DNA from: Bacteroidales bacterium
GTDB taxonomy: Bacteria; Bacteroidota; Bacteroidia; Bacteroidales; P3
Assembly (NCBI GenBank): GCA_017449525.1
Contig: JAFTFL010000005.1
Coordinates: 1 to 64,000, forward strand
Reading direction: 5' to 3'
Length of the DNA: 64,000 nt
Shown here: in pieces, positions 4,156 to 18,696 of the stretch
How positions within the stretch are numbered: position 1 is the stretch's first letter
Layout: every line of letters begins with the position of its first letter
Made by a program: the position numbers and the translations under genes
Notes under the pieces: generated by a model
What the model saw: the letters and a program-made list of their open reading frames with translations, nothing else
The model's database searches: none
Told to the model about the DNA's origin: nothing

Positions 4156-4168
4156 CCAATCTCCAACC

Positions 4169-4200
4169 AAGTCTGGAAAGTTGAGAGGCCTTCCAGACTT
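4169..4200 (+). promoter_or_regulatory. nifJ-tail hairpin, copy 1
   Basis: A 32-nt inverted repeat 13 nt after the nifJ stop: arms AAGTCTGGAAAG and CCTTCCAGACTT, loop TTGAGAGG. No U-tract follows, so it is not a canonical intrinsic terminator. The same 32-nt design recurs after two displaced nifJ tails (17044-17075, 18697-18728) with changes on both arms that keep pairing. The next ATG lies exactly 31 nt downstream, the same spacing as at 17107. It could be an RNA processing or mRNA 3'-end stability element; function is inference. Confidence 0.6.
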
Positions 4201-4231
4201 CAAGATATGTGACAAATAATATATATACGAT

Positions 4232-4762
4232 ATGATAGCAGGAGGCAAAGGTGGAGGCAACACCATAACTGGATTGATTTACGAGGGCAAAGTCGACCTC
4301 GCAACATTCCTCAATAATCAGGAAGACTATTCTGTTGACGATAGCAAAGTATACTATCGCGGCAAACTCATCGCTCGTTTATTCAAGAAACACAAGTTAT
4401 ACAAATATCTTGAAGAGAATGGCGTTGACTGGACAAAGCACCTTTCCAAAAAGTTGCTGCCCGATGATTGCATCTATGTCATCATTAACAACACTGTTTT
4501 TATCATTGAGGTAAAACACCAACAGGTCGCCGGTAGCGTTGATGAAAAATTGCAGACATGCGATTTCAAGAAGAAGCAGTACATCAAATTGTTCTCGGAA
4601 TTGAACTACAAAGTTGAGTATGTTTACATCCTCGACGACTGGTTCAAGCAAGACCAGTACAAGGATGTGCGCGACTACATTATTAGTGTTGGCTGTCGCT
4701 ACTACTATAATTACATTCCGTTACAGGAACTTGGATTACCCGTACCAAAAACAAAGAAATGA
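4232..4762 (+). CDS. PD-(D/E)XK nuclease, probable restriction endonuclease
   Basis: A 176-residue protein whose centre carries a PD-(D/E)XK-like signature: DD followed by hydrophobic strands and IIEVKHQQ near residues 90-97, with a following conserved-looking GSVDEKLQTCDFKKKQY segment. It overlaps the start of an adenine/cytosine-N4 type methyltransferase by 4 bp, the arrangement expected of a type II restriction pair. The sequence specificity cannot be read from the protein. The start codon sits 31 nt after the hairpin that follows the nifJ stop, a spacing shared with the lipoprotein gene at 17107. AT-rich composition relative to nifJ suggests acquisition. An alternative is a repair-type nuclease, but the methylase partner argues for restriction. 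Confidence 0.7.
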   Translation: MIAGGKGGGNTITGLIYEGKVDLATFLNNQEDYSVDDSKVYYRGKLIARLFKKHKLYKYLEENGVDWTKHLSKKLLPDDCIYVIINNTVFIIEVKHQQVAGSVDEKLQTCDFKKKQYIKLFSELNYKVEYVYILDDWFKQDQYKDVRDYIISVGCRYYYNYIPLQELGLPVPKTKK

Positions 4763-5643
4763 ACACAATAAAACCCTACTATCGATCCGCGAACCGCGAT
4801 TTCACTTTGTTGAACGGCGATTGTTTTGAGTTGCTTTCTCAATTCGATTTCAAGTTCGACATGGTTTTCGCAGACCCTCCCTATTTTCTTTCCAATGATG
4901 GCATCTCTGTACAGTCAGGCAAGATTGTCAGCGTGAACAAAGGCGAGTGGGATCGTGGTGGTTCGCAACAAGACATTGACAACTTCAACAAGCAATGGAT
5001 TGGCCTTTGCCGAGACAAATTAAAAGAAGATGGCACGATATGGATAAGCGGCACATATCACAATATTTTCTCTGTCGCAAATTGTTTGACAGTACTAGGC
5101 TTCAAAATCCTTAACGTCGTAACTTGGGTAAAGACCAATCCGCCACCAAACATCTCTTGCCGATATTTTACCTATTCCACGGAGTTTGTCATTTGGGCGC
5201 GTAAGAGTGCCAAAATGCCTCATCATTTTAACTATGAGTTGATGAAGCACCTCAACGATGAAAAGCAGATGACTGATGTATGGCGACTGCCAGCTATTGC
5301 ACCATGGGAGAAATCGTGCGGCAAGCACCCAACGCAAAAACCTCTCTCGCTACTTACACGAATAATGCTCGCTTCGACAGATAAAGGTGCTTGGGTACTT
5401 GACCCATTTGCAGGATCATCTACTACTGGTATTGCAGCGAATCTCATCGGACGCCGTTTCCTTGGAGTCGAGAAAGAAAAAGAATTCGCAGAGATAAGCA
5501 AGCATCGTCGACAAGAGATTGATAACGCTAAAGTATTTGGAGAGTATAGAGCAAAGATAAAAGATATTGCAAAAGCCGAAGACCAACAGCAAACCCTGTT
5601 TGCATGCGAAGAGTGCGAACCATATGGAGATTTACCATTTTGA
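4759..5643 (+). CDS. Site-specific DNA methyltransferase, beta class (N6-adenine probable)
   Basis: A 294-residue amino-methyltransferase. Motif IV, FADPPYFLSNDG, is near residue 35, and motif I, DPFAGSSTTGIAA, is near residue 215; catalytic motif before SAM-binding motif defines the beta class. The DPPY form usually methylates adenine N6, less often cytosine N4. HPTQKPLSLL precedes motif I, as in many small type II enzymes. The ATG overlaps the stop of the upstream nuclease by 4 bp, so translation is probably coupled and the methylase protects host sites from that nuclease. The C-terminal tail (CEECEPYGDLPF) is unlike common family members. Recognition sequence not inferable. Confidence 0.88.
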   Translation: MNTIKPYYRSANRDFTLLNGDCFELLSQFDFKFDMVFADPPYFLSNDGISVQSGKIVSVNKGEWDRGGSQQDIDNFNKQWIGLCRDKLKEDGTIWISGTYHNIFSVANCLTVLGFKILNVVTWVKTNPPPNISCRYFTYSTEFVIWARKSAKMPHHFNYELMKHLNDEKQMTDVWRLPAIAPWEKSCGKHPTQKPLSLLTRIMLASTDKGAWVLDPFAGSSTTGIAANLIGRRFLGVEKEKEFAEISKHRRQEIDNAKVFGEYRAKIKDIAKAEDQQQTLFACEECEPYGDLPF

Positions 5644-5665
5644 AATAACATAAAACATATCGATT

Positions 5666-6490
5666 ATGAAAATCCCACAGCAAATCGACACCGTCAGTAT
5701 CAGTCGTGCAGCCAATGCAGCACACTACGAGTACATGGCTACCATACGCCGCCGTATCGATGAAATCCCACTAGAGAGCGAGATTTGGAAACGTGCCACG
5801 GAGGAATTTCGGCAAGCATTCGAAATCGAGGACAAAGCATTCAAGCAGTACCGCGCCAGCGACCACACGACTGCTATTCGCGATGCCGATGCCGAGCGCG
5901 ACCGTCAGTACTCGTCTCTCCGCGATGCGATAAAGGCTTTCGCCAAGTTCCCCATTGCCGAAACCGCACAACAAGCCGAGCCTCTGATGAAAGTTATCCG
6001 CAACTACAAGATTGACACTTCGGAAAACTACATGAAAGAGAGCGGAAACATCGAGAACATGCTGCAAGACCTTTTGCAATACAGCACACAGTTGCGCAAA
6101 CTCGGACTTGACACACTTGCCAATCAGCTAAGGGAAAGCAACAACACCGTCCGGCAACTGCTTGCTTCGCGCAACGACGAGCGTACCGCCCGAGTGATGG
6201 GTGAGTTGAAAACCGCTCGTGCCGCCACCGACAATGCCTACGCTGCCGTTGTTTTCTACACCAACGCCTATGCAGCCATGAACCCCGACCGCCGCGAAGC
6301 CGCCGACCTCGTGAAGCGCATCGCCGAAGACCTTGACTATTTCCGCCGCTACGCAATGGCACCTGCCCACCGCAAAAAAGAAGACGAGCCAACACCGAAC
6401 CCGACCAACAACGAAGATGTGGTTTCCATCACCGACGGACACGCCGATGCCGCCGCCGACAGCAACTTTGATGACATAACCCGCCCATAA
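5666..6490 (+). CDS. DUF6261 family protein, intact copy
   Basis: A 274-residue, largely helical protein of the Bacteroidales family DUF6261; function unknown. It starts MKIPQQIDTVSIS, followed by charged helices and a low-complexity Asp/Ala-rich C-terminus. It is inserted between two restriction-modification modules (gap 22 bp before, 6 bp after). The first ~100 bp of coding sequence and part of the leader are almost identical to 18495-18610, where the gene start is fused to a nifJ tail. A third, internally deleted relative lies at 10465-10957 on the opposite strand. The repeated association with restriction genes and nifJ tails suggests the family travels with this island. Confidence 0.8.
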   Translation: MKIPQQIDTVSISRAANAAHYEYMATIRRRIDEIPLESEIWKRATEEFRQAFEIEDKAFKQYRASDHTTAIRDADAERDRQYSSLRDAIKAFAKFPIAETAQQAEPLMKVIRNYKIDTSENYMKESGNIENMLQDLLQYSTQLRKLGLDTLANQLRESNNTVRQLLASRNDERTARVMGELKTARAATDNAYAAVVFYTNAYAAMNPDRREAADLVKRIAEDLDYFRRYAMAPAHRKKEDEPTPNPTNNEDVVSITDGHADAAADSNFDDITRP

Positions 6491-6496
6491 TAACTC

Positions 6497-7573
6497 ATGA
6501 TGAGCAAGACCGATATACAACCTGCGCTTTTCGGCCAAAAGCATTCAAGCCGCGACTACACAAAGGCCGAGTGCTGGGGAAAGAACCAGTTTAACAGTTC
6601 ATTCCCTGCCTCATTAGTTGCGTATATGTATTCCAAAGGCATTGCCCCTATATACATCAAAACCACGAAAGACAATAAGATTGTCCATAGTTCCATTGGG
6701 AGCGCGGAGTTGTTCGGCATCGACCCGTTGGGCGACAACGCATACTACAACTACGAGGCTGGTTTCGCTCCTTATGAAAAGTTTTATCAGGGCGAGCGCG
6801 AACATATCGACCTCGTGATGATGAACAACGAAACAAGCGAAGTGCTTTCAGGATTGGAGGTGAAATTGACAGCCCTACCCGACAACACAACCAAGTCGCA
6901 GCCCGAATCGGAGTGGGGTACGGAAATTGTAATGCGACCGCCCACCATCTGTTTCCTTGTTTGCAGCATCTGTGCCAACTATTGCACAACCAAAGGAAAA
7001 GAGCGTTTGCGAGTGCTGCTTCGCCAAGTGCCGCAAATAAATCATTGGGAAGAGATTGATGAGGTGATGGCTCACTATACCAAGATTCTAGACGCTGTAC
7101 TCGCGGTGGCCTCTGATATGCACAATAAACAAAAGCCTCTTATCATCCAACCTGTTTGGAAAACCGAGGGCAACAAGATGCGCCTCAAAGAGGACTGCCT
7201 TGATGTTTTTGTTTGGTCAAATCTTGCCATCATCCAAATGTGCTGCACAGAGGATTCGTCAGACATTAAGCGGATTAACCGCTTCCATCGCACGATTATT
7301 TGGATATACAAGATGTTGCTTGACTATGTAACTTATGACACTTTCGACTACAAGCGAATCATCCGTCTGCAATCCTACAACCTTGCCAACGACAAAGCCT
7401 TTGCCCTACCTGGTGCCAAATCGCGCCAATTCCTCAAAAGCGACATCGTACTGCATCCCAGAATTTCAAAATACGAGATAAAGAATATTATTCTTGGCGG
7501 TGGGCAAGACCTTTTGAGTCCCGAGCGACGCTTTGATGCAGTTCTTGTAAATAGTCCTGATATATTCGATTGA
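6497..7573 (+). CDS. HindVP-family type II restriction endonuclease
   Basis: A 358-residue protein whose N-terminus (QPALFGQKHSSRDYTKAECW, then GKNQFNSSFPASL) matches my recollection of the HindVP restriction endonuclease family; HindV recognises GRCGYC. A probable catalytic region is DLVMMNNETSEVLSGLEVKL near residues 110-129, with the LEVKL acting as the E-x-K half of a PD-(D/E)XK site. It ends with a 4-bp spacing or overlap into a C5-cytosine methyltransferase, the partner type known for HindV. Start could be the second Met (6500). The GRCGYC specificity is an inference from family membership only. Confidence 0.85.
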   Translation: MMSKTDIQPALFGQKHSSRDYTKAECWGKNQFNSSFPASLVAYMYSKGIAPIYIKTTKDNKIVHSSIGSAELFGIDPLGDNAYYNYEAGFAPYEKFYQGEREHIDLVMMNNETSEVLSGLEVKLTALPDNTTKSQPESEWGTEIVMRPPTICFLVCSICANYCTTKGKERLRVLLRQVPQINHWEEIDEVMAHYTKILDAVLAVASDMHNKQKPLIIQPVWKTEGNKMRLKEDCLDVFVWSNLAIIQMCCTEDSSDIKRINRFHRTIIWIYKMLLDYVTYDTFDYKRIIRLQSYNLANDKAFALPGAKSRQFLKSDIVLHPRISKYEIKNIILGGGQDLLSPERRFDAVLVNSPDIFD

Positions 7574-7578
7574 GCCTT

Positions 7579-8502
7579 ATGAAAGTTGTGGATTTATTCT
7601 GTGGTTGCGGGGGATTGAGTCTTGGATTTGAGAAGGCAGGGTTCAACGTCGTGGCAGCATTCGACAAATGGAATGAAGCCTTAAACGTATATAACCTCAA
7701 TTTCAAACACCCCGCACGACAGCTTGACTTGACCGATGTGGAGTATTGCGCCGAAATGGTTGCTTCATATTCCCCAGACATGATTATTGGGGGGCCTCCT
7801 TGTCAAGATTTTTCCTCGGCAGGAAAACGCGACGAAAACAATGGACGCGGAGATCTTACCGTGCATTATGCCGAAATCGTAAGTAGCGTAAGACCGACTA
7901 TGTTCGTAATGGAAAATGTTGACCGTATTGTAAAAACCAACAAGCTGACATCGGCCATGCAAATATTTCGAGAAGCAGGTTATGGTCTTTCGTACCGTAT
8001 AATGGATGCCAGTTATTGTGGAGTTCCGCAAAAACGCAAGCGTTTCTTTATGGTGGGAAAACTTGGCGAGAAAGACGGTTTTATGGATGCTTTTTTCGAG
8101 GCAAATCTATCAGATAAACCTATGACTATGCGAGAATACTTTGGCGACACACTGGGTATCGAGTATTATTATCGCCATCCTCGTAGTTATGCCCGTCGGG
8201 GGATATTCAGTATAGACGAACCAAGTCCCACAGTGCGCGGAGTAAACCGGCCAATGCCCGACGGCTATGAGATACACCACAACGACCCCGTACAAAGCAA
8301 AGACGGTATACGACCTTTGACTACAAAAGAGCGTAGTCTTGTGCAAACGTTCCCTGCAGAATTTCAATTTGCAGGCAATAAAACTGACGTTGAGCAGATG
8401 ATAGGGAATGCCGTTCCTGTTAATCTCGCAAGGTATGTGGCATCTGCTATTGAAAGATTTGTTGAGCAAGAAGAATCGCAAACAGGCAAAGCAAACACCT
8501 AA
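7579..8502 (+). CDS. DNA (cytosine-5) methyltransferase, HindV-like
   Basis: A 307-residue C5 methylase with the ordered motifs: I (DLFCGCGGLSLGFEKAGF) at residues 4-21, IV (GGPPCQDFSSAG with the catalytic Cys) near 75, VI (ENVDRI), VIII (QKRKRFFMVG), and IX/X (RPLTTKERSLVQTFP ... IGNAVPVNLA) near the C-terminus. It starts just after the stop of the HindVP-family nuclease and protects its sites. I chose the ATG at 7579 because MKVVDLFCGCGG is the usual N-terminus; an upstream TTG at 7570 is less likely. The gene is followed at once by a periodic repeat array. Confidence 0.93.
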   Translation: MKVVDLFCGCGGLSLGFEKAGFNVVAAFDKWNEALNVYNLNFKHPARQLDLTDVEYCAEMVASYSPDMIIGGPPCQDFSSAGKRDENNGRGDLTVHYAEIVSSVRPTMFVMENVDRIVKTNKLTSAMQIFREAGYGLSYRIMDASYCGVPQKRKRFFMVGKLGEKDGFMDAFFEANLSDKPMTMREYFGDTLGIEYYYRHPRSYARRGIFSIDEPSPTVRGVNRPMPDGYEIHHNDPVQSKDGIRPLTTKERSLVQTFPAEFQFAGNKTDVEQMIGNAVPVNLARYVASAIERFVEQEESQTGKANT

Positions 8503-8511
8503 TACAACCTT

Positions 8512-8690
8512 GCACATGAGCGCAATCATGAAATTGAACGCCAACAACATCACGCTCACGAGCGCAGTCGATTTTGGCTTTAGGGCGCACTCTCGCTCAC
8601 GAGCGTGGTCAATTTCGGCATCAAACGGAACGTTCGCTCACGAGCGCGACCACTTTTCCGCACCTCAACACTCTCTCGCTCATGAACGTG
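8512..8690 (+). repeat. Five-unit degenerate array with GCTCACGAGCG core, 41-42 bp period
   Basis: The core GCTCACGAGCG starts at 8554, 8595 and 8636, with diverged copies at 8512 (GCACATGAGCG) and 8678 (GCTCATGAACG); spacings are 42, 41, 41 and 42 bp. With the flanking C most cores read CGCTC-AC-GAGCG, a small perfect-arm hairpin. The remainder of each unit is also related (pyrimidine-rich TTTT / GGCA segment), so these are tandem repeats with a conserved hairpin, not repeats with unique spacers. The array lies 9 bp after the HindV-like methylase gene. Function unknown. Confidence 0.75.
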
Positions 8691-8704
8691 GCAATATTTA
8701 GCAT

Positions 8705-8848
8705 ATGAAAATACGAATTATAAGCATGATGACAAACAGTTTTATTCAGGAAACAACAACGCAAATCATAGAAGATGTTGCAAATACCAACGAAAACTTA
8801 TCTGCACAAGGTGTTTATTTTACATCAAAGAATGTGCATGGAGAATAA
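8705..8848 (+). CDS. Small hypothetical ORF (47 aa)
   Basis: ATG at 8705 immediately after the repeat array, TAA at 8848. The predicted peptide starts MKIRIISMMTNSFIQ and ends SKNVHGE. AT-rich like the neighbouring small genes. I do not recognise it; it may be a short gene, a remnant, or chance. The interval 8849-8944 shows nothing I can name. Confidence 0.3.
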   Translation: MKIRIISMMTNSFIQETTTQIIEDVANTNENLSAQGVYFTSKNVHGE

Positions 8849-8944
8849 ATTGCATGTCGAAAAAAAAGACAATATTGTTAAGAATGTCGTTTTTAGACGA
8901 GGAGAAAAATAGGTCTACTATTCATTACGTGTAAGTATTGTTAT

Positions 8945-9232
8945 ATGACTTCAAAAAAGAGAGTTGACAAATCTATCCGAGAGTTAATCTCTTCTACATG
9001 GGGAATTGTTATTTCGGCATTCACTATTTTCGGAATGGGCTTTGGTGCTGGATGTTATTTTGAGAATTCTCTTTCAAAAATACACTACAACGATGAACTT
9101 ACACGGCTAAATAATCTGATTATAGATAATAGAGAAAAACACGAGCAAGAAACTCACGAACTCAGAAATCAAATATATAACCTTCAAGAGGCATTAATTA
9201 ACGAAAAGGAGAAACGCAATGAATCAAAATAA
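8945..9232 (+). CDS. Small membrane protein with C-terminal coiled coil (hypothetical, first of pair)
   Basis: 95 residues. A short basic N-terminus is followed by one membrane segment (TWGIVISAFTIFGMGFGAGCYF, about residues 18-39). The rest is a charged heptad-like helix rich in E, N, L and K, ending EKRNESK. The gene overlaps the next one by 14 bp in another frame, indicating coupled translation. I recognise no family. The context between a restriction-modification pair and a decayed nifJ tail suggests an accessory, possibly defence-associated role, but that is only guilt by association. Confidence 0.6.
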   Translation: MTSKKRVDKSIRELISSTWGIVISAFTIFGMGFGAGCYFENSLSKIHYNDELTRLNNLIIDNREKHEQETHELRNQIYNLQEALINEKEKRNESK

Positions 9233-9626: not shown

Positions 9627-9700
9627 CAGCGTCATCGCCACCATGACATACGTGATTTCGGAAAACGAAACATAATGTTTCATACCACGACAACATATAA

Positions 9701-10201
<501 letters not shown>

Positions 10202-10227
10202 TCCCGCATCAACACACTAAAACACGG

Positions 10228-10258
10228 AAAAGCGAGGCTGCAAAGTCTCGCTTTTCTT
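10228..10258 (+). terminator. Intrinsic terminator after nifJ copy 2
   Basis: Stem AAAAGCGAGGC / GTCTCGCTTTT with a short loop followed by TCTTGT. It lies 26 nt after the stop of the displaced nifJ tail. Its presence here, and absence after the real nifJ, suggests it may be the ancestral nifJ terminator carried downstream with the displaced 3' end. It would also separate the first cassette block from the convergent DUF6261 remnant. Confidence 0.8.
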
Positions 10259-10276
10259 GTCTAATGCCCTTCCGCA

Positions 10277-10464
10277 ACGTTGCAAGACCCTGTCGGAGCT
10301 CTCAAAAACGCCTTTACAAACCTGCGGAAGGCTCTATTGAAACCGAAAATCGGTTTTGCAGCCCTGCGAGGCCGCTTTTTGGAACAAAAGCAGGCTTTGC
10401 AACACCCGCAAAGCCTGTTTTCGGTATCGAGGCAACTCTCTGCAACGCTGAAAGGCGGATTTTT
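10277..10464 (-). repeat. Degenerate ~42-bp tandem repeats downstream of DUF6261 remnant
   Basis: Related segments with the core TTTTGCAGCCCTGCGAGGCC (plus strand) recur with starts near 10321, 10363 and 10405, and a poorer copy near 10289. The repeats lie directly after the stop of the minus-strand DUF6261 pseudogene. The period is close to that of the array at 8512-8690 although the sequences differ. Function unknown. Confidence 0.5.
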
Positions 10465-10957
10465 CATCCCTCGGCGACCTCGGCGTGCGCGTCCGTGTCG
10501 GCTTCGGATGGCTGGCGCTTGCCGCCAGAGGTGTTCATCGCGTGTTTGCGGAAGTATTCGAGACCCTCGTCCATACGCTTCACAAGGTCTTCGGCTTCTC
10601 GGCGGTGTTGATGCGATAGTTCTTGATGATGCGCAACAGCGGCTCAGCGGCCTGCGACATCTCGGCGATGGGGAACTTGGCGAAGGCCTTGACGGCATCG
10701 CGCAGCGAGGCGTAGAGGCGGTCGCGCTCGGCGTCGGCGTCGCGCAGCGGGGCGGTCTTGAGGCTCGCAGAGTATTTCTTGAAAGCCTTGTCCTCGTCGG
10801 TGAAAGCGCGACGGAACTCGTCCACGGCCTTGCGCCAAAGGTCGTTCTCTATTGGAATCTCCTCCACGCGCCGCATCACCGTAGCGAGGTATTCATAGTG
10901 TGCCGCGTTGGTCGCCCTCGCGATACTGACAGTGTCAATTTGGATGGGGATGTTCAT
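10465..10957 (-). pseudogene. DUF6261 family, internally deleted and frameshifted
   Basis: The N-terminal ~110 residues (MNIPIQIDTVSIARATNAAH ... EPLLRIIKNYRINT) align with the intact DUF6261 protein at 5666. About 90 codons are then missing, and in a shifted frame the family C-terminus resumes (RREAEDLVKRMDEGLEYF RKHAM) to a stop at 10465. In the original frame translation stops at 10580. The junction falls in a short ACACCGCC-like region resembling both parental sites, consistent with deletion between microhomologies. The leader differs from the other copies. The interval 10958-11149 holds no gene I can support. Confidence 0.8.
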
Positions 10958-11149: not shown

Positions 11150-11833
11150 TTATAATTGTAATGATGATTGTGTAGACAGTCTTCTGGCTGTTCGGAATGC
11201 CTTTTCCAATGTATCTTCTCCTATTCCGCGAGTCCTCAATAATTGATTCATCGCATGTACATCTTTGCGATTCAGAGTATCCCTAATCAGCCTAACATAT
11301 TGAGGCCTCATGCCACTCGATTTTGAAAGAGTGTCATCCGAATGGCTGAGCCAGAATTTTTTGAAATCCAAATACAAGTCATCATTGACATTGGGGTCAT
11401 ACTTGTATATTTCAATATCTATGTCATCGCATTTTGAAAGATACTCTTTCATCAATGCCATTGAAATCTCTTCGCTTAAACCACCGTTACTCGCTCCAAG
11501 CAAGGGAAATGCTATAGAGGTTATCTGCTTCTCTTGGTAAGTTTCAACAAATTTGCGAAGACCTTTCAACAGATACTCCTCCTTGCTTGGATATTTCCAG
11601 TGAAACTTGGTCGGGAAGTTAAGAATCCATCTGTCTTGAGCCTTATATAGCCATAGCTTTCCAATCGTAATGAGATGTTCCTTGCATAATTCAACATATT
11701 TCTCACACATTTCCGGATATCGAAGCTTGTACTCAAAAGCAACCCCCTTACCCATAGCCCCGACACAGTTTATCGTGTTGACTATGGTTTGACACTTTGA
11801 AGTGAAAATGTTTCCTGTAATTACCTTTATCAT
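11150..11833 (-). CDS. Macrodomain protein, DarG-like antitoxin
   Basis: 227 residues. The N-terminal ~150 form a macrodomain: MIKVITGNIFTSKCQTIVNT with the early ADP-ribose-binding N, then GAMGKGVAFEYKLRYP and PLLGASNGGLS, the phosphate-binding loop. DarG proteins use this domain to remove ADP-ribose that DarT places on thymidine in DNA. It lies 38 bp downstream of a DarT-domain gene on the same strand, the canonical darT-darG order. The C-terminal ~70 residues are shorter than the extended C-terminal region of classical DarG. Alternative: a general ADP-ribosylglycohydrolase; context favours DarG. Confidence 0.85.
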   Translation of the reverse strand: MIKVITGNIFTSKCQTIVNTINCVGAMGKGVAFEYKLRYPEMCEKYVELCKEHLITIGKLWLYKAQDRWILNFPTKFHWKYPSKEEYLLKGLRKFVETYQEKQITSIAFPLLGASNGGLSEEISMALMKEYLSKCDDIDIEIYKYDPNVNDDLYLDFKKFWLSHSDDTLSKSSGMRPQYVRLIRDTLNRKDVHAMNQLLRTRGIGEDTLEKAFRTARRLSTQSSLQL

Positions 11834-11871: not shown

Positions 11872-13710
11872 TTAGAAATATAGTTCTGGATTAAACTTTA
11901 GTTCTATTCCATATTTTTCCGACAAGTCTTTTAACTGGGGAATTTCTTTCAAATAATGAATTCGCGTTATATAACTTTTCTCTATTACATTAGGAACCAG
12001 TACTTCTGCACATTTGATTCTTTTGCCATCCTCGTAATCGCTCCAGTAATCGTCATTGATACAGCACCAATTCAGTTTGTCCAAATCTGTTAAGTCTGAA
12101 TAAAACTTTGTTTTACTATTATAGGTCGCTGTTGTATGGACTGCTGCATTACCATCGGAGAATACGACACCATCTTTTAGAAATACCGTTGGAGAAAACT
12201 CGATTAAAACAATATTCTCTTGTTGATCCTTTCTAACATATAGCATCGGGTTACGTGGGTTAAAATATAGTGGCGCATAATCATGTATGGGTTTATTATG
12301 AATTGGTTCGGGATGAGCTCTTCTGTCATTAACATCGTTATTAGCTATGTTAACTTTCATAAAGCCGTCCTTTCTTGCTTTTGTATGCGACATCAATCCA
12401 TTTTGAAGAATGGAATTAAGATTGCTAACATGGGTCATATGGAATAATCCATTAACACCATATTGGGCGCATATGGAAATAATCTCGTCTTCTTTTTCTC
12501 TTTGTTTCCGTAAGGCTTCTTTTTCTTTCTTTTTCTTTTCGTTGTCAATTAGTTTTATCATCTCCTCCCTGTCATAGCCTTTTAGAAAACTTATATATGT
12601 AATAAGAAGCCGTTTATCTTTATTCTTATCGATTATTTTTTTGCAAACTTCTTTTAAGTGGTCATTTTCAGTCTGCATTTCGATAATAACAATATGGCGA
12701 TTCTTGACCGCAGGATAATAGTCATAGTCAATTTCGTCATCAAACAATAAAGAGTCAGATACGGTTTCTACCACTTCGATATCGTCGGGTAAATCCGCAA
12801 ATAAAGACCGTACGAAATAATGATAAAATAACCCCTCTTTTCTCCATTCCTTATTATTAGCACACAGGTATACGGAAATTGGTTGTTGGCGAGATAACTC
12901 GAGGAGGAAATCATTCAATCTTTTGTACACTGGCTCGATAAAGAATCTATTCTTTTGCTTGAATGCACCAATTTTAGATGTTTCTTCTTTAATGTATTTA
13001 AGCCCTGTATAGTCTAGTTCGCTTTCCAAACAATATGAAGCAAAAAAAATCTGCCAAACTCCGAAATTTCCATCAATGAATTTCCCTTCATCATTTTTCT
13101 TTTGAAATGGAATTTTATAGTAGTAACGTCCTTCATTTGGCAATATTTTCTTCTGCAAATCATAACATAAATTTCTGTATTTTTCCTGCTCCCTCTCCCA
13201 GGTATTGTATTCTTGTGCTTCAAGAAAGAACTTCTCGTAATCGCGTATTTGATGCTCGTTGGATACAATGTTTTCTTTTGCGGAGTGTGGGTGAAGCGAG
13301 TTCCATTTTTTTAATCCGTTAGGGAAAGCAGCAATAATATTAGTGTATGACTTCTCAATCGCCTTTTTCCTATCTTCAATAGTCTTTAATTTCCGTTCTT
13401 CTTGCGGCCAATTGTAGCCACAACTAACGATATAATCCAATCTATCATTCTTTGCAGAACTGACATTGATGCTATGTTTCCTGACAAAATCAGCGAAAAC
13501 AAGAGGATAAGTGCTTTTGAGTTCATTAACACGTCTCATCAACCGTTCTCGTTTAGCAACTTTCATTTTGCCAACGATAACGCATACGATAATAAAAATA
13601 CAGGTTATTACAAGAAAAAACAAAAATTCCATAAGCAGAAGCAATATTTTGGGGTAAAGCACAACCATCCACCGCGCAAGGCGTGGCAGACGGAGGAGTG
13701 AAATGAACAA
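11872..13710 (-). CDS. DarT-like DNA ADP-ribosyltransferase with membrane-anchored N-terminal extension
   Basis: 612 residues. The C-terminal ~190 are a DarT domain: GLFHMTHVSNLNSILQNGL at 421-439, HDYAPLYFNPRNPMLYV near 475-492, and an AEVLVP segment whose Glu (about 569) matches the catalytic glutamate position. DarT enzymes ADP-ribosylate thymidine in single-stranded DNA and act as toxins in phage defence. The first ~400 residues are not part of known DarT: a strong membrane segment (about 18-48), a basic helix, a long domain with many aromatic and acidic residues, and a Lys/Glu coiled coil (390-415) joining it to DarT. I recognise no family in the middle part. The start could also be Met15 or Met28, both keeping most of the membrane segment. 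The DarG-like gene follows. Confidence 0.85.
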   Translation of the reverse strand: MFISLLRLPRLARWMVVLYPKILLLLMEFLFFLVITCIFIIVCVIVGKMKVAKRERLMRRVNELKSTYPLVFADFVRKHSINVSSAKNDRLDYIVSCGYNWPQEERKLKTIEDRKKAIEKSYTNIIAAFPNGLKKWNSLHPHSAKENIVSNEHQIRDYEKFFLEAQEYNTWEREQEKYRNLCYDLQKKILPNEGRYYYKIPFQKKNDEGKFIDGNFGVWQIFFASYCLESELDYTGLKYIKEETSKIGAFKQKNRFFIEPVYKRLNDFLLELSRQQPISVYLCANNKEWRKEGLFYHYFVRSLFADLPDDIEVVETVSDSLLFDDEIDYDYYPAVKNRHIVIIEMQTENDHLKEVCKKIIDKNKDKRLLITYISFLKGYDREEMIKLIDNEKKKKEKEALRKQREKEDEIISICAQYGVNGLFHMTHVSNLNSILQNGLMSHTKARKDGFMKVNIANNDVNDRRAHPEPIHNKPIHDYAPLYFNPRNPMLYVRKDQQENIVLIEFSPTVFLKDGVVFSDGNAAVHTTATYNSKTKFYSDLTDLDKLNWCCINDDYWSDYEDGKRIKCAEVLVPNVIEKSYITRIHYLKEIPQLKDLSEKYGIELKFNPELYF

Positions 13711-13810
13711 AGCGAGGAATTGACCCCTACGAATTTAGATGCTCTTTCGTTGTGTGTGGGGGGGGTAATAATTAGCGAGTTATGAGCGTTGCGGAGCATA
13801 TCGGCAGGTG

Positions 13811-14026
13811 TTATGATATTGGCACGAAGTACTCGAAGCACAAATCCTCGTCAAGCGTACGCCAGCTGATGCCATAGCGGTCAGTTTCGTAGTCCTGCAA
13901 TGCCTCGGCAGAAGCCTGCCGCAGCCGTGGATAGTCGTCGATGCGCTCGCGAAGCTCCTGCCCGCCATCGGTCAGTATATGCACGTAGTCGCTGTCGACC
14001 CACACTTTGTTTACGTTCATTGTCAT
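13811..14026 (-). CDS. DUF2442 family protein
   Basis: 71 residues (MTMNVNKVWVDSDYVHILTD), with the typical strand-rich N-terminal half and a helix around RQASAEALQDYETD then GISWRTLDEDLCFEYF. DUF2442 proteins are short and commonly sit next to DUF4160, as here (18 bp downstream of it); the pair is suspected to be toxin-antitoxin-like, but no biochemical role is established. 100 bp separate it from the DarT-domain gene. An eight-G run lies in that gap near 13760. Confidence 0.75.
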   Translation of the reverse strand: MTMNVNKVWVDSDYVHILTDGGQELRERIDDYPRLRQASAEALQDYETDRYGISWRTLDEDLCFEYFVPIS

Positions 14027-14044
14027 ATCGAGCCCTTCCTTTCT

Positions 14045-14293
14045 TTATTTACCGAAAAACGTATGCCACTGCTGGATGATGATTTCGCGGTTTTCCTCGA
14101 TAACCATCTCGGCCATCTTGAGCTCGTTGGCCTTGAGGCCGTCGTTTTCCACCAGCAGGATTTCGGGCAATACGTTAAACTTGGCCTTGTGAGCCGTCTT
14201 GCCCTTGCCAGCCACGACGTGGACGTGTATCGGTTCGTGGTCGTTGGAGAAGAACTGGAATCTCAGCCCGAAGAATATAAACAGCAGCGGCAT
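14045..14293 (-). CDS. DUF4160 family protein
   Basis: 82 residues. The N-terminal half holds the family signature: FFSNDHEPIHVHV near residues 14-26, followed by GKTAHKAKFNVLPEILLVEN. It is the upstream member of a DUF4160-DUF2442 pair on the minus strand. Both families are widespread in mobile parts of bacterial genomes. Molecular function unknown; the histidine-rich motif could bind metal, which is inference. Confidence 0.8.
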   Translation of the reverse strand: MPLLFIFFGLRFQFFSNDHEPIHVHVVAGKGKTAHKAKFNVLPEILLVENDGLKANELKMAEMVIEENREIIIQQWHTFFGK

Positions 14294-14459
14294 AAGCGTT
14301 TCTTTTGAAGTTTATACTGCCCTAATAACGCATCCCTCCCGCTTTTATTGCCTCGCCCCAACATTTTCTTCCGCCACGAGGCAATAAACTCCCGCAACCA
14401 TCGTTTTTTTTGAAAAAAAAATAATAATTCACGTATATAGTACATAGAATTAGGCAGAA

Positions 14460-14801
14460 ATGAACGACAAAGACATATTCGAACTATTCCAGAACGGCTT
14501 CATCGCAGGGAGTACATCCGACAGTTATTCTCGTTTGTGCAACTTTTTGAGTGCCATGCGTTGAGGTCAGTACTATCCGATTTCCGATGAGGACATCCAT
14601 CGCGGAGTGGAATGCGAGAAGGCCCAGGCCAAGAACAGGGCGAAGATATTGTTTATGGGCTTCCCTGAAGATGCAAAGAAAGCAATGGAAATCGCCATCG
14701 ACTTCAAATACTCCCAATGTCTCCAACAATCCCTAAATTACAAGCACACATACGAAAATCAGAACAATCACTACTATCGTAGTATAAACAAGAATATATA
14801 A
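14460..14801 (+). pseudogene. Small gene interrupted by an in-frame TGA
   Basis: ATG at 14460 opens a frame reading MNDKDIFELFQNGFIAG and onwards for 34 codons to a TGA at 14562-14564. The same frame then continues without another stop (GQYYPISDEDIHRGVECEKA, through ILFMGFPEDAKKAMEIAIDF) to 14801. Both halves look like real coding sequence. The simplest reading is a nonsense mutation in a ~113-codon gene; the downstream half could alternatively start at the ATG at 14607. No family recognised. The 14294-14459 interval upstream has poly-T/poly-A runs near 14405 and no gene. Confidence 0.5.
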
Positions 14802-14807
14802 TTAATT

Positions 14808-16484
14808 ATGATAGGTATTCAGGACTCGACAACAAACCATTTCAGCTCCCTTATCCGCAATGGGGGCAAGTATATAATTCCTAAATTCCAAAGAGACTAC
14901 TCTTGGGATGTAGAGCAGTGGGATGACCTTTGGCAAGATATTCGAAATATGATTGCTGAACAATCTGATCATTATATGGGCTATCTTGTCCTGCAAACAA
15001 CCAAAGGTAAGGATCGATTTATTATAGACGGCCAGCAACGCTTCACTACAATCACATTCATCATACTTGCGGCCATAAAAGCCATCCAGAAATTAATTGT
15101 TAATGGTGTTGACGTTGACGATAATGAACAGCGAGTAAAAACCTTACAAAATACATATATTGGCAACTTGGATCCTATATCACTGGAATATGACAATATA
15201 TTGGTATTAAACCGTAATAATGATGCATACTATAGGGAGTATATTGTCAAACTCGGCGAGATGAGAGTTAGAAACACGTCGTACACAGAGAAACTAATGA
15301 GGAAATGCTTCGAATGGTATGACCGACAAATGACTGGTTTATATAAATCAGGTTCAGAATACGCTGAACTAATAACATATATTGTTGACCATCTCTATTT
15401 TACAATTATCCGAGTGGATGACGAAATGAATGCATTTCGGGTATTTGAGACTTTAAATGCCCGCGGTGTGCAACTATCGTCTGCAGACTTATTAAAGAAT
15501 TATTTGTTTTCACTTGTAGATAATTCCGTCCAATTTCCTGACAGAATTACCACCCTTGAAGAGAAATGGTCAAACTTGACCCAAAATATTCAAGCAGAGA
15601 AATTGCCGGACTTCATTCGCTATTATTGGAATTCCAAGAATAAGACTGTTCGTGCCAATGAACTGTTCAAAGCCATTCGTGGTAAAATCAAGACAGCCGA
15701 AGAGGTCTTTGCCCTTGTAAATGAGATGATGGAGTACAGCGACATCTATATGGCTTTAAGGAATGCCAATGACGAACTTTGGCAAGGTCGTAGAGAAATA
15801 ACGGACAATATAGAGTTGCTGAATCTGTTCAACATGAAGCAACCTTATTCATTATTAATGACTGCATATAAGCATCTTGTGAGAAACGACTTTATGCGGC
15901 TCCTGTCTGATGTAATAACTGTTGGTTTTCGTTACAATGTCATTTGCGGAAAGAATCCTAATGACATAGAGAAGGTGTACAATACTATAGCGACTCAGAT
16001 TTACAACACTTCCATATACAATAGAAAACAAATGCAAGATATTTATGTTGATGACAACGAATTTGTGACAGTCTTCAGTCATAAGGCATTTTCTCCTAAT
16101 ACTCGAAACAACAAGGTTGTCAAATACATTTTGGGAAAATACGAGCGTTTCAAAGGTGGAACAAGAGATATATCTCTTTCAAGTGAGACCGATACATTAG
16201 AGCATATTTTGCCACAAAATCCGGGTTTGGAATGGGGCGATGACAACTATGACTTCGATTCGTTAATATATAGAATCGGCAACCTGTGCCTGCTTGAAAA
16301 GAATTACAATAGAGATTTAGAGAACAAGCCATATCTCGAAAAATGCGATGTGTATGCACAATCAGCGTTTGAAACCACACGGATAATTCCATCATTATAC
16401 CACGAATGGAACGGGGACACCATTAACCAGAGGCAGAAACAAATGGCAGATTGTGCAAAAGCCATCTGGAAAATTGATTTCTAA
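14808..16484 (+). CDS. DUF262/DUF1524 protein, single-chain GmrSD-type restriction endonuclease
   Basis: 558 residues. The N-terminal DUF262 (GmrS-like) domain has IPKFQRDYSW at 24-33 and the nucleotide-site motif DGQQRFTT at 74-81. The C-terminal DUF1524 (GmrD-like) domain has an HNH-type signature: EHILPQNP at 465-472, then GNLCLLEKNYNRDLENKPY at about 491-509. GmrSD-type enzymes are NTP-dependent nucleases that attack phage DNA with modified bases; both halves are here in one chain and the key residues are present. It starts 6 bp after the interrupted small gene and lies 190 bp upstream of another nifJ remnant. Target specificity not inferable. Confidence 0.88.
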   Translation: MIGIQDSTTNHFSSLIRNGGKYIIPKFQRDYSWDVEQWDDLWQDIRNMIAEQSDHYMGYLVLQTTKGKDRFIIDGQQRFTTITFIILAAIKAIQKLIVNGVDVDDNEQRVKTLQNTYIGNLDPISLEYDNILVLNRNNDAYYREYIVKLGEMRVRNTSYTEKLMRKCFEWYDRQMTGLYKSGSEYAELITYIVDHLYFTIIRVDDEMNAFRVFETLNARGVQLSSADLLKNYLFSLVDNSVQFPDRITTLEEKWSNLTQNIQAEKLPDFIRYYWNSKNKTVRANELFKAIRGKIKTAEEVFALVNEMMEYSDIYMALRNANDELWQGRREITDNIELLNLFNMKQPYSLLMTAYKHLVRNDFMRLLSDVITVGFRYNVICGKNPNDIEKVYNTIATQIYNTSIYNRKQMQDIYVDDNEFVTVFSHKAFSPNTRNNKVVKYILGKYERFKGGTRDISLSSETDTLEHILPQNPGLEWGDDNYDFDSLIYRIGNLCLLEKNYNRDLENKPYLEKCDVYAQSAFETTRIIPSLYHEWNGDTINQRQKQMADCAKAIWKIDF

Positions 16485-16674
16485 ATACGAGTAAATTCTG
16501 GACATTTCAATATCAGCAGTTAATAGCGGCTATTGATACGTGGTATTGAATTTCAAAGCAGCGAAGCGTTGATAAATACTATTGATGTAAAGATTCTAAA
16601 TAAACTAGTAAGTATGATGGATTACACCTATGGCACCACCTGCGCTGAAATCGTCAACCGTATAATTAAAATCC

Positions 16675-16911
16675 GCGACTTCATAATGGGCGAGGTGCGC
16701 TACTGTCGAAAGGCTGCGAACTCCATTAAAATCAAATCAACCAAAGTGAGCAACTCGCTGATAAAGACCTTCCTCACTGTATTTATTTTTTGATAATAAG
16801 GTGTTCGGATCCCCTTTGGGGTGCCCACAGGAAGCCAAAGAACTCTTCGTCGCCACCGAAAGAAATGCAAAACTCCGTTATGAAGGATATAAGAAGCTTT
16901 CGGAACTTTAA
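16675..16911 (+). pseudogene. nifJ: Displaced nifJ 3' end, copy 3a
   Basis: Begins at the nifJ segment RDFIMGEVRY, is interrupted by the 48-bp element B (16704-16751), resumes NSLIKTF, is interrupted again by a ~54-bp AT-rich insert containing a CCCCTTTGGGG hairpin (about 16773-16826), and resumes [20 protein letters not shown] to the nifJ terminus YKKLSEL and TAA. The second insert brings a stop (TGA at 16792). The interval 16485-16674 before it holds no gene I can support. Confidence 0.85.
16704..16751 (+). repeat. 48-bp in-frame element B in nifJ tail
   Basis: Begins TGTCGAAAGGCTGCGAACTC and ends AAAGTGAGC. It is inserted between nifJ codons GEVRY and NSLIKTF and adds exactly 16 codons (CRKAANSIKIKSTKVS). 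Same consensus and length as element A at 9872-9919 but at a different nifJ position, so the two arose as separate insertions, not as one insertion duplicated with the tail. Confidence 0.7.
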
Positions 16912-16934
16912 TGGTTTTGCATTTCTTCAAGCGC

Positions 16935-16981
16935 TGCCAAAGGCTGTGAGCACCGCTGAAATAAAATTAAATGCAGTGAAC
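16935..16981 (+). repeat. 47-bp element C in nifJ tail
   Basis: Begins TGCCAAAGGCTGTGAGCACC and ends GCAGTGAAC, ending exactly at the nifJ codons NAKLRYEG. It is a more diverged relative of elements A and B. Just upstream, GTTTTGCATTTCTT (16914-16927) is the exact inverse of AAGAAATGCAAAAC at 16860-16873 in the preceding tail. Confidence 0.6.
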
Positions 16982-17029
16982 AACGCCAAACTGCGCTACG
17001 AGGGCTACAAGAAACTGAGCGAGATGTAA
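16982..17029 (+). pseudogene. nifJ: Displaced nifJ 3' end, copy 3b
   Basis: A second, shorter tail only 70 bp after copy 3a: codons [15 protein letters not shown] and TAA, identical in protein to the real nifJ terminus. It directly follows element C and is itself followed by the conserved 32-nt hairpin. It encodes nothing functional alone and marks the upstream edge of the lipoprotein/NERD cassette. Confidence 0.85.
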
Positions 17030-17043
17030 ACCATCCCCAAACC

Positions 17044-17075
17044 AAGCCTGGAAGATCAAGAGGTCTTCCAGACTT
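17044..17075 (+). promoter_or_regulatory. nifJ-tail hairpin, copy 3
   Basis: 32 nt, 14 nt after the tail stop: arms AAGCCTGGAAGA and TCTTCCAGACTT, loop TCAAGAGG. Same length and loop pattern as at 4169-4200, with paired changes at the base of the loop. The next ATG is exactly 31 nt downstream, and the 31-nt spacer resembles that before 4232 (ATAAnATATATA core). Role unproven. Confidence 0.6.
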
Positions 17076-17106
17076 CAAAAAGTTGAACAGATAAAATATA
17101 TAGAAT

Positions 17107-17721
17107 ATGAAGAAAGCATTGTTTATCGGATTTGCCGCTCTCGCATTTGTAGGCTGCACTATTACACCAGAAAAGAAAGCCTCCTCAATTGTGGAAAAGG
17201 CCGTCAAGAGTTCACTTTATCACCCAAATTCCTATGACCTGATAGGAACAGCTGTTGATAGTGCCTTTGCTCCATTGGATGACCCTGATTTCTTTGAGAA
17301 AACGCTTAAACTATACAAGCTTGGTCTAGAAATGGAGAGTTGTGATAGAGAAATGAAGCATGCCAAATCGTCAATGGCGATTTGGAGTAATTCTTATAGT
17401 ACCTTCTCAAGAAATGAATATAACGAAGCGAAAGAGGAGTATGATAAGTGCGTTGCAAAAATGGAGAGTCTTCAAAGGAAAGGCGAAAAACTGGGAGATG
17501 AGCTGAAAGGCATCGCCGAGCAAGGAAGAAACTATATTGGATGGAAAGTTACACATAGTTATCGCGCGCAAAACAACGCAGGTCAGACTTTAATTGGCGA
17601 AAGCATCTTCATCCTTAGCCCCGAAATGGACGAGATACTTGCTGCTTACAACACCAACGATGGAGATTACGAGAATGTTCAGATGATGTATGAAATGATG
17701 ATAGAATCCGCAGAAGAATAA
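17107..17721 (+). CDS. Hypothetical lipoprotein
   Basis: 204 residues. The N-terminus MKKALFIGFAALAFVGCTIT is a lipoprotein signal with Cys17 as the probable lipidation site. The mature protein is helical and charged, with a likely coiled coil around residues 105-145. SYRAQNNAGQTLIGESIFIL resembles short beta-rich lipoproteins of Bacteroidetes, but I recognise no named family. The start lies 31 nt after the hairpin that follows a displaced nifJ tail. A NERD-domain gene follows after 23 bp, so the two are probably co-transcribed. Confidence 0.7.
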   Translation: MKKALFIGFAALAFVGCTITPEKKASSIVEKAVKSSLYHPNSYDLIGTAVDSAFAPLDDPDFFEKTLKLYKLGLEMESCDREMKHAKSSMAIWSNSYSTFSRNEYNEAKEEYDKCVAKMESLQRKGEKLGDELKGIAEQGRNYIGWKVTHSYRAQNNAGQTLIGESIFILSPEMDEILAAYNTNDGDYENVQMMYEMMIESAEE

Positions 17722-17744
17722 GTTATCACAAGTAGTCTTCACCA

Positions 17745-18488
17745 ATGGAAATCGTTGTTTCAATCCTGTTCTTTGTCGCGATGCTTTTCCTCATCGCCCG
17801 TGCTCTACGTACGGCTATTATGGGGAAAGGTGCCTATGCAGAGGACAGGGTGGCACGACGATTGTCGAGATTGCCCGAAGAGTACCGAGTTTTCAATGAC
17901 GTTTACCTTCGTAATAGAGGCAGGTCTGTGCAGATTGACCACATTGTCATTTCGCGATATGGCATTTTCGTTATAGAGACCAAAAACTACAAAGGTTGGG
18001 TGTATGGAGCTGAAGAAGCTGAATACTGGACACAAAATATATACGGACACAAATACCAACTTTATAATCCTATACGTCAAAACTCTTCACATGTAGGGGC
18101 GATTTGCAATATTCTCCGCATCAATCGCGAAAAAGTTATTCCGATTGTCGTTTTTGCAGGCAGTGCGACTGTGCATTGTTCAGCAGATTGTCCTGTTATT
18201 TACTTGAGCCAACTACATCGTGTGATTGACGAGCATAAAATTGTTATGTTCGACGAGGCCCAAGTTGCACAAATGGCTGCAACGCTCACAAGTTCTCTTG
18301 TAGTCGACAAAAATCGTCGTCGTGAGCATATTTACGAGGTACGGGAACAAATAGCAGAAAAGGAACGCTTGACTGCTAATGGCATCTGTCCTCGCTGTCA
18401 TGGGCAATTGGTTGTTCGAGAAGGTAGATATGGGCAATTCATTGGCTGTTCAAATTATCCTAAATGTAAATATACATTAAATGTATAG
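17745..18488 (+). CDS. NERD-domain nuclease-like membrane protein with topoisomerase-type zinc ribbon
   Basis: 247 residues. An N-terminal membrane segment (about residues 4-24) is followed by a NERD domain: GKGAYAEDRVARRLSRLP, VQIDHIVISRYGIFVIETK (about 63-81, with the D and E-x-K of a PD-(D/E)XK-like core), then YNPIRQNSSHVGAI. The C-terminus is a zf-C4 topoisomerase ribbon: CPRCHGQLVVREGRYGQF then CSNYPKCKY, four cysteines. NERD domains are thought to be nucleases; the ribbon probably binds DNA. It forms a cassette with the upstream lipoprotein gene. A defence role fits the neighbours but is inference. Confidence 0.88.
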   Translation: MEIVVSILFFVAMLFLIARALRTAIMGKGAYAEDRVARRLSRLPEEYRVFNDVYLRNRGRSVQIDHIVISRYGIFVIETKNYKGWVYGAEEAEYWTQNIYGHKYQLYNPIRQNSSHVGAICNILRINREKVIPIVVFAGSATVHCSADCPVIYLSQLHRVIDEHKIVMFDEAQVAQMAATLTSSLVVDKNRRREHIYEVREQIAEKERLTANGICPRCHGQLVVREGRYGQFIGCSNYPKCKYTLNV

Positions 18489-18513
18489 CATCATCAACAT
18501 TAAACATACCGAT

Positions 18514-18679
18514 TATGAAAATCCCACAGCAAATCGACACCGTCAGTATCAGCCGTGCAACCAATGCAGCACACTACGAGTACATGGCTACCATTCGTCG
18601 CCGCATTGAGGAGATTGTCGCTACCGAATACAACGCTAAACTGCGCTATGAGGGCTACAAAAAGTTGAGCGAGATGTAA
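18514..18679 (+). pseudogene. DUF6261 start fused to nifJ tail (copy 4)
   Basis: An open frame of 54 codons. The first ~34 codons (MKIPQQIDTVSISRATNA to RRRIEEI) are nearly identical to the DUF6261 gene at 5666, and the last ~20 ([20 protein letters not shown]) are the nifJ C-terminus. The leader before the ATG also matches that of 5666 (AAACATACCGATTATG). The fusion is in frame, so it could be translated into a 54-residue chimera, but more likely it is a recombination scar. It is the most distal nifJ tail. Confidence 0.85.
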
Positions 18680-18696
18680 ACCATTTGCTCAAATTC

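Follow-up and report, generated by a model that had tools for sequence, protein, structure and literature searches.

The metabolic gene nifJ, encoding pyruvate:ferredoxin oxidoreductase, appears to anchor a two-sided capture locus in a genus of uncultured gut Bacteroidales, where cargo genes would be acquired through a homologous joint inside nifJ and an illegitimate joint at the other end, without a dedicated recombinase (a reading given a probability of roughly 0.7). The locus was studied in a stretch of 64,000 nucleotides (nt), hereafter the window, from a Bacteroidales bacterium (assembly GCA_017449525.1, contig JAFTFL010000005.1, positions 1 to 64,000 of the forward strand), and across 114 genomes of its genus, the source genome included; handles beginning with G, C and L denote genomes, contigs and loci, G000 being the source genome. 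In the mechanism proposed, donor DNA from another lineage, carrying nifJ sequence and adjoining cargo, would pair with the resident nifJ; homologous recombination inside nifJ would join one end, whereas the other would be joined illegitimately, within or beside the resident gene. The cell would retain one complete, often chimaeric nifJ, with the resident 3′ end (in a downstream capture) or 5′ end (in an upstream capture) pushed outward behind the new cargo, where it would decay; repetition would yield arrays whose older ends are more distal. RecA-dependent exchange, natural transformation or another form of uptake, and expression of the cargo are presumed in this scheme; a ComEC homologue is present. 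A homologous anchor with an illegitimate joint is favoured because the borders vary, both ends of the gene are used, the lineages differ, and no recombinase was found in the proteins scanned.

Downstream of the intact gene, a first-pass annotation of the window had reported nifJ 3′ coding sequence recurring at four sites, and both DNA searches and tblastn bear this out: all four displaced ends are true homologues, each closing in the nifJ terminus and a stop codon (Table 1). Whether they could be aligned to nifJ at the DNA level had been put forward as a check, and they align at 78–97% identity. Tail 1 matches nifJ at 9788–9871, 9919–9999, and 10056–10201 (86–88% identity; E 3.5e-47 for the last of these), and tail 2 at 16672–16703 (97%, E 3e-8) and 16824–16911 (78%, E 1e-11). 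Tail 3 is accompanied by a copy of about 80 nt of 3′ untranslated nifJ sequence, to position 17110 (80%, E 4e-26), and tail 4, which lies below the listing threshold of the DNA search (E 0.001), was recovered by tblastn. None of these is a plain copy: inserts of about 45–60 nt interrupt tails 1 and 2 and precede tail 3, and the nifJ pieces between the short inserts have been lost. The tail ending at 10201 looks like the original nifJ end rather than a young scar, because it is followed by a terminator and a convergent DUF6261 fragment, as in G012, G024, and G028.

The strongest argument for import is the divergence between intact and displaced ends. Fifteen comparisons were made and 14 gave a result (G124 gave none); those of G104, G136, and the G016 head were with G012 instead of their own genome. 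In the seven cases exceeding 60 codons (G024, 464 codons; G012, 272; L093, 264; G102, 218; G031, 136; window tail 1, 117; G028, 62), the intact and displaced ends of the same genome differ at 14–40% of synonymous sites, with a ratio of nonsynonymous to synonymous divergence (pN/pS) of 0.06–0.31. For G024, 83.5 synonymous and 62.5 nonsynonymous differences were counted, where 306 nonsynonymous differences would be expected under neutrality; L093 shows 59 and 15, and G102 29 and 17, respectively. Four short cases of fewer than 50 codons (two in the window, G001, and G015) gave ratios of 0 to 0.26, which mean little. The tblastn alignments behind these figures favour the better conserved parts of decayed tails but span almost the whole of the long ones. 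Divergence with so low a pN/pS suggests that the ends diverged as parts of working genes, under purifying selection, in different lineages.

Capture does not seem to be confined to the 3′ end of nifJ, as had been supposed: six genomes (G016, G018, G024, G064, G098, and G120) carry an additional, incomplete nifJ head upstream of another nifJ start, with both on one contig and strand. The downstream array described earlier stands, and the limits given for it do not, as the array also reaches upstream of nifJ. G016 carries three heads by protein, or four if a short one at L182 14574 is counted. The gene behind the upstream head is complete in G024, and in G016 is visible for 464 nt, to the contig end. 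Window positions 1–524, which cover the last part of a WG-repeat gene and nifJ up to its nt 35, are 94.7% identical to positions 14085–14608 of locus L182 (contig C11 of G016). Beyond this shared cassette, nifJ continues in the window; in G016, it is cut off at nt 35, and behind it come a Fic gene, a 68-nt nifJ head, a Bro-N gene, an aspartyl-protease-like gene, and the next nifJ start. Since the WG cassette precedes an intact nifJ in the one genome and a 35-nt head in the other, it is evidently seen before and after displacement, representing sequential capture in two states. On visual comparison, the outermost G016 head is similar to the G001 nifJ start, itself equipped with a promoter-like motif.

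A comparison with relatives had been recommended for empty sites, single-cassette states, and other cargo behind the same tails, and all three were found. Downstream, the empty state is represented by G138, whose nifJ end is of the terminator type and whose 40 kb of sequence read hold no displaced tail, and upstream by G068, which has no same-strand open reading frame (ORF) less than 1.2 kb upstream of nifJ. A single-cassette state occurs in a related member of the Bacteroidales (JAKSMW010000010.1, locus L093), where nifJ, visible from residue 606 at the contig start, is followed by one gene of 592 residues with no Pfam match and then by a displaced nifJ part from residue 975. A 5.1-kb cassette (HATPase, MTaX1/restriction enzyme, and C5 methylase; 89% identity) is common to G024 and G136, with the same two nifJ junctions, and thus cassettes may also move or be inherited with both ends. 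The earlier proposal that the nifJ 3′ end is a hotspot at which defence cassettes were captured in succession is supported by this comparison of states, and by cargo, breakpoints, and divergence.

Exchange inside nifJ is also suggested by the source bin, which holds a second full nifJ (contig C20, 1–3743; locus L037) that is 98.6% identical to window positions 459–4232. All 53 differences fall inside 478–1602, and the copies are identical from 1603 to at least 4232, a run of 2,630 nt. The C20 copy has a different upstream flank, with a GmrSD gene directly upstream, and its contig stops 77 nt past the stop codon. Plain contig overlap is ruled out by the 53 differing sites and the different flank. 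The two copies would reflect an exchange within nifJ, be it in a single genome or among strains, and two strains in one bin are a possible alternative to one genome with two copies. At fourfold sites, nifJ is less diverged than the control gene kbl in 66 of 78 genome pairs (0.08 versus 0.36 in one case), as expected if nifJ moves between species. A synonymously recoded nifJ end, a short spacer, a short insert (unit A, described below), and then an old tail make up a single mini-insert found in G016, G068, G088, and the window, which to judge from its sequence is one insertion allele in several species. Recoding of the nifJ 3′ end at many synonymous sites was seen in several species (L048 690–870; L175 16860–17040; window 16820–17035; L211). 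An origin of the recoded end in a distant genus was rejected: at up to 14 permitted substitutions, the matches listed all lay in loci of the genus and none in L087–L166.

The frequency of displaced ends was surveyed with 80-residue queries for the nifJ tail, head, and middle, and for the C terminus of kbl; tail and head matches within 1 kb were joined into one place. The genomes are draft assemblies and, where titles were seen, mostly metagenome bins. A nifJ tail was found in 65 of the 114 genomes, at two or more places in 29, and a head in 56, at two or more places in eight (the second head in the source genome and in G025 being part of a second nifJ). The nifJ middle, for which the match listing is complete, was found in only 25 genomes, as a single copy except for two each in G000 and G025, which fits repeats that break assemblies. 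By comparison, kbl was matched in 112 genomes, 95 with exactly one near-identical copy and 17 with only distant paralogues among the matches listed; these run down to about E 3e-8, beyond which short extra fragments could lie (one was seen, in G019). By hand count, nifJ frames of 1,000 residues or longer occur in 14 of 66 genomes of this genus versus 43 of 53 from ten other genera of the family. Outside the genus, where identity is lower and short tails may be missed, the family search gave partial extra nifJ copies in G142, G159, and G167, and in G171 a fragment was all that appeared. In ten genomes (G000, G001, G012, G015, G024, G031, G036, G068, G102, and G124), one contig bears both nifJ and a tail apart from it, and in all ten at least one tail follows nifJ in the same orientation. 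The arrangement found is that of a single complete anchor gene and an outward array of its displaced partial copies, with G102 and G124 as exceptions.

Between nifJ and the outermost displaced end, 14 contigs carry 126 cargo ORFs of at least 120 residues. The 60 locus proteins scanned in Pfam, 42 of these ORFs among them, include, besides the systems of the window, an MvaI/BcnI restriction pair (G138) and a PsyrTA-like pair (G065) upstream of nifJ, an HEC-01-like pair (G102) and a PDC-M56A-like ATPase (G012) downstream, and Fic, ORF6N, and Bro-N proteins. Several others either lack a match or have no obvious part in defence (WG-repeat, Sel1, leucine-rich repeat, MreB-like, and cytidylate kinase proteins, among others); judged by sequence, the cargo is rich in defence, yet not only defence. 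Homologues in another genome of the set were found for 59 of the 126, 40 of them in G001, G015, and G124, which share one conserved segment; outside these three the figure is 19 of 80, and in the window 1 of 12. In three relatives outside the genus, one protein cluster lies downstream of nifJ (L089 12004–12594, L090 6871–7536, and L091 4052–4696), and its L090 member gave the sole IS200-like (Y1_Tnp) match in the scans.

Integrative elements that insert into the ends of tRNA genes or rlmH supply a new end and push the former one aside. It is conceivable, if unlikely, that the nifJ 3′ end is the target of site-specific elements of this kind whose integrase gene lies elsewhere. The synonymously recoded ends of several genomes would suit such an element, as would the 7 of 34 listed tail borders falling at nt 3615–3618 of nifJ, but four of these seven (L004, L018, L175, and L211) are the one shared mini-insert allele. 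No fixed integration site or constant att core was found at the joints: where sequence other than short inserts adjoins the tail, the border lies 48–51, 57, 62, 76, 82, or 185 nt before the stop codon, and about 1,390 nt before it in G024, with some clustering at 48–62 nt. Heads are displaced as well, at the other side of a 3.6-kb gene. A Pfam scan of 60 locus proteins, comprising 42 of the 126 cargo ORFs plus 18 neighbours, shorter ORFs, or outgroup genes, revealed no integrase. In favour of such elements, the source genome has five genes of the phage-integrase family, all elsewhere; none matched on the contig of the window, and the statement in the first-pass annotation that the window lacks an integrase holds.

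Two kinds of nifJ end were distinguished: a terminator-type end, with a strong stem and then a T-rich stretch, and an end with a 34-nt hairpin lacking a terminator tract. Among 53 distinct nifJ 3′ flanks with at least 700 nt behind the gene, 30 are of the hairpin kind and 23 are others. An ORF of at least 75 residues starts within 150 nt of 25 of the 30 hairpin ends (median 66 nt) versus 4 of the 23 others. A T-tract follows 2 of 30 hairpin ends versus 22 of 23 non-hairpin ends, albeit on unequal terms, as the non-hairpin criterion scans a wider stretch; by a single criterion, the counts are 0 of 16 versus 18 of 37, the latter including misclassified hairpin ends. TAnnTTTG is a promoter motif of the Bacteroidetes. 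Among 18 nifJ starts, either complete genes or running to the contig end, 11 have a same-strand ORF ending 38–100 nt upstream and no TAnnTTTG within 150 nt, and the remaining seven have the motif 60–96 nt upstream. Cargo is likely to share transcription with nifJ, and may ride the nifJ transcript because capturing ends carry a hairpin without a terminator tract. Downstream captures would bring a nifJ end whose covarying hairpin replaces the terminator, upstream captures would sit between the nifJ promoter and nifJ, and the freshest cargo on either side would probably be expressed from the nifJ transcription unit. A bolder formulation, offered tentatively, makes nifJ a two-sided platform for expression as well as capture, free of integrase, on which cargo set between the nifJ promoter and nifJ, or behind a conserved read-through hairpin substituted for the terminator, would be switched on by position, older cassettes would be moved outward and fall silent past a terminator, and defence cassettes would be shared across species via nifJ homology.

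The hairpin also raises the prospect of an integron-like system, in which the nifJ 3′ end and its covarying hairpin would be the recombination site of single-gene cassettes. A strict hairpin pattern gave 14 matches in 59 genomes (0 for the reversed control), each within about 135 nt behind a nifJ end and nowhere else; the stem is paired in 96% of cells, and both sides have changed in 6 of 13 pairs. In G015 and G023, tail, hairpin, gene, tail, and hairpin follow in series, without an intact nifJ beside them. Such a system is nonetheless rather improbable: no recombinase was found (none on the contig of the window, the five phage-integrase genes elsewhere being untyped), the 5′ borders of the tails vary, the hairpin is also explained as a 3′ untranslated region, and the covariation derives from eight distinct sequences with few stem types.

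That nifJ ends were duplicated locally and in tandem in each genome, without import, and then decayed or received insertions is very unlikely. Most tails are indeed on the same strand as nifJ and near it, but the cargo between the copies differs among genomes, and the synonymous divergence and low pN/pS of the longer tails imply that both copies were working until recently, whereas fragments left idle by a local duplication should approach neutrality. Least probable of all is an assembly or binning artefact, with strain mixtures misjoined at a conserved gene: although the nifJ middle is rarely recovered, contigs end inside nifJ, and the source bin has 3.7% contamination, identical joints recur in different species (the G024/G136 cassette and the WG cassette of G000 and G016), and data of the same kind yield long nifJ frames in most genomes of the other genera.

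Several observations weigh against capture anchored in nifJ, or at least against its simplest form. No donor molecule or transfer has been seen. The displaced G024 end might be expected to be sister-like and the intact end foreign, but they are almost equally close to the relative G012 (41 versus 43 informative sites), and other relatives behave likewise; only G000 is closer to the displaced end (51 versus 81 informative sites, p 0.01). The low divergence of nifJ relative to kbl could also be caused by codon bias in a strongly expressed gene. Inverted tails occur in G102 and G124, G102 also has one upstream, and in G001, G015, and G124 tails lie 16–17 kb downstream of a terminator-type end, behind other genes; none of this is predicted by simple serial insertion. 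In the window, the tails at 16672–17029 and 18617–18679 sit beyond the apparent native end, which serial insertion likewise leaves unexplained; tails 2–4 neighbour a GmrSD gene whose G024 counterpart has no tail beside it. The integrase scan covers one third of the cargo ORFs, and two of the seven motif-bearing nifJ starts (G001 and G136) also have a same-strand ORF 56–63 nt upstream. Contigs often break inside nifJ, and the G016 nifJ start and several others are visible only to the contig end.

Capture without mobility genes has precedents. The minimal mobile elements of Neisseria (Saunders and Snyder, 2002) are reportedly variable genes between conserved genes that are swapped by homologous exchange and carry no mobility genes of their own. 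To our knowledge, displaced core-gene ends in an array do not belong to that concept. At nifJ, too, one place holds alternative cargo, but its flanks are displaced copies and not intact genes. In the type VI secretion clusters of Vibrio cholerae, effector displacement and arrays of orphan immunity genes have been described, and a homologous anchor with an illegitimate join was proposed (Kirchberger et al. 2017; PMC5361080). In that system, old 3′ parts are likewise pushed downstream, with no known integrase and no specific integration sites; there, the anchor is a region of a secretion-cluster gene and the retained immunity genes belong to the cluster, whereas nifJ is a core metabolic anchor unrelated to its cargo, is used at both ends, and has cargo rich in anti-phage systems. 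The same text links the displacement mechanism to Rhs loci, where strings of orphan 3′ ends arise, it is hypothesised, by successive replacement (Jackson et al. 2009, as cited in PMC5361080). The rhs 3′ end is itself the variable payload; nifJ, in contrast, keeps the same end, and the payload consists of separate genes. In Pseudomonas aeruginosa, defence genes lie between core genes at the hotspots cDHS1 and cDHS2, of which 29% and 47% of sites, respectively, have no detectable mobile gene, and transfer via flanking homology has been proposed (PMC10250203); displaced gene ends are not mentioned in the available part of that account. No report naming nifJ or its product as a site of capture was found among open-licence PubMed Central papers, to which the search was limited.

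How defence islands are built and moved without mobility genes is named as an open question for the Pseudomonas hotspots in PMC10250203. At nifJ, capture scars survive on both sides of one core gene, and the order, donor lineage, and breakpoint of captures can hence be read from sequence in tens of genomes. A core and probably strongly expressed gene may be suited as an anchor in offering long homology and a transcript to ride on. Moreover, nifJ is a common metabolic marker, and its broken or missing state in many assemblies of the genus would mislead metabolic inference.

Table 1. Features of the nifJ locus, by position in the window.
Feature	Position	Strand	Remarks
WG-repeat gene, 3′ part; cassette directly upstream of nifJ	3..437	+	Pfam WG_beta_rep 1.3e-36
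5′ leader common to many nifJ starts and displaced heads (ATTAATCCTTAAA...)	459..489	+	the two nifJ copies of this genome part upstream of 459
nifJ, intact (pyruvate:ferredoxin oxidoreductase), homology anchor	490..4155	+	ORF 1221 aa
Hairpin without T-tract (beta), between nifJ stop and cargo	4168..4201	+	
PDDEXK-like putative restriction endonuclease	4232..4762	+	Pfam PDDEXK_11 3.7e-4, below cut-off
N6/N4 DNA methylase	4759..5643	+	Pfam PF01555 1.3e-57
DUF6261 gene, intact copy	5666..6490	+	Pfam PF19775 2.3e-36
HindVP-type restriction endonuclease (RE_HindVP)	6497..7573	+	Pfam PF09519 4.5e-128
C5 cytosine methylase	7570..8502	+	Pfam PF00145 6.5e-71
Displaced nifJ tail 1, mosaic with deletions and inserts, native-looking 3′ end	9720..10201	+	117 codons, pS 0.40, pN/pS 0.31
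Unit A, short insert bridging two nifJ pieces of tail 1	9872..9917	+	
Terminator of native-like (alpha) nifJ end: strong stem, then T-rich stretch	10226..10257	+	4 T in next 10 nt
DUF6261 gene fragment, convergent with nifJ	10580..10957	-	convergent behind tail also in G012, G024, G028
Macro domain protein, DarG-like	11150..11833	-	Pfam 7.2e-14; PADLOC DarG 2.9e-52
DarT-domain protein	11872..13710	-	Pfam DarT 2.2e-41, residues 423-585
DUF2442 protein	13811..14026	-	Pfam 2.8e-10
DUF4160 protein	14045..14293	-	Pfam 4.6e-17
GmrSD-type (HEC-06-like) protein	14808..16484	+	region 94% DNA identity to G024, there too beyond DUF6261
Displaced nifJ tail 2, two short inserts, synonymously recoded end	16672..16911	+	DNA match
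Displaced nifJ tail 3, behind unit A insert	16981..17029	+	same mini-insert in G016, G068, G088
Beta hairpin after tail 3	17043..17076	+	
Putative lipoprotein, 204 aa	17107..17721	+	ORF only
NERD-domain protein with Zn ribbon	17745..18488	+	Pfam 1.2e-32
Displaced head of DUF6261 gene (first 34 codons), fused to tail 4	18515..18616	+	
Displaced nifJ tail 4	18617..18679	+	81% over 62 nt; tblastn E 8e-6
Beta hairpin after tail 4	18696..18729	+	
kbl, conserved gene at far side, used as control	19619..20800	+	

The gene calls of the window were checked with Pfam and PADLOC profiles. Most of the cargo named in the first-pass annotation was confirmed (the HindVP/C5 pair, the N6/N4 methylase, DarT/DarG, DUF4160, DUF2442, GmrSD, and NERD), the PDDEXK partner alone scoring below threshold; a Pfam search with the 204-residue lipoprotein-like ORF gave no match. 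DUF6261 recurs around nifJ, intact or in fragments (three in the window), one of them cut exactly at a nifJ tail, and may be another anchor gene. Among named organisms, the nearest relatives of the window nifJ are uncultured Bacteroidales. A contig of G013, of the same genus as the window, is identical to JAGHVA010000171.1 from Candidatus Colimorpha onthohippi, and the host had thus been wrongly described as a Prevotella relative; Candidatus Colimorpha has been equated with GTDB UBA1711 and reported from horse faeces (PMC8957277).

The short interspersed element represented by unit A consists of GCGAACACC, about 20 A-rich bases, and GTGAGC, mostly before AAC, and occurs in both orientations. 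Further copies lie in the window at 16704–16750, 16774–16823 (reversed), and 16933–16980, in G000 at C5:10009–10046, and in loci L057–L086. Most of those read abut AAC (or GTT), that at 16774 being an exception, and no target duplication is visible at them. By a strict pattern demanding AAC, 0 to 9 copies per genome were found, in 14 of 41 genomes, and none with a reversed control. The element also interrupts other genes, such as a gene on contig C5 with an FVDLFGGSG motif; being present outside nifJ too, and thus not specific to capture, short inserts were rejected as the capture mechanism. A second, different insert (GGCTACGCCT...CGCAGCTCCC) occupies the same nifJ position in the window (10000–10055) and in L051, L052, L054, L055, and L185, and in some genomes a conserved GC-rich stretch and the start of an ORF (VVYNEWQK) come before it.

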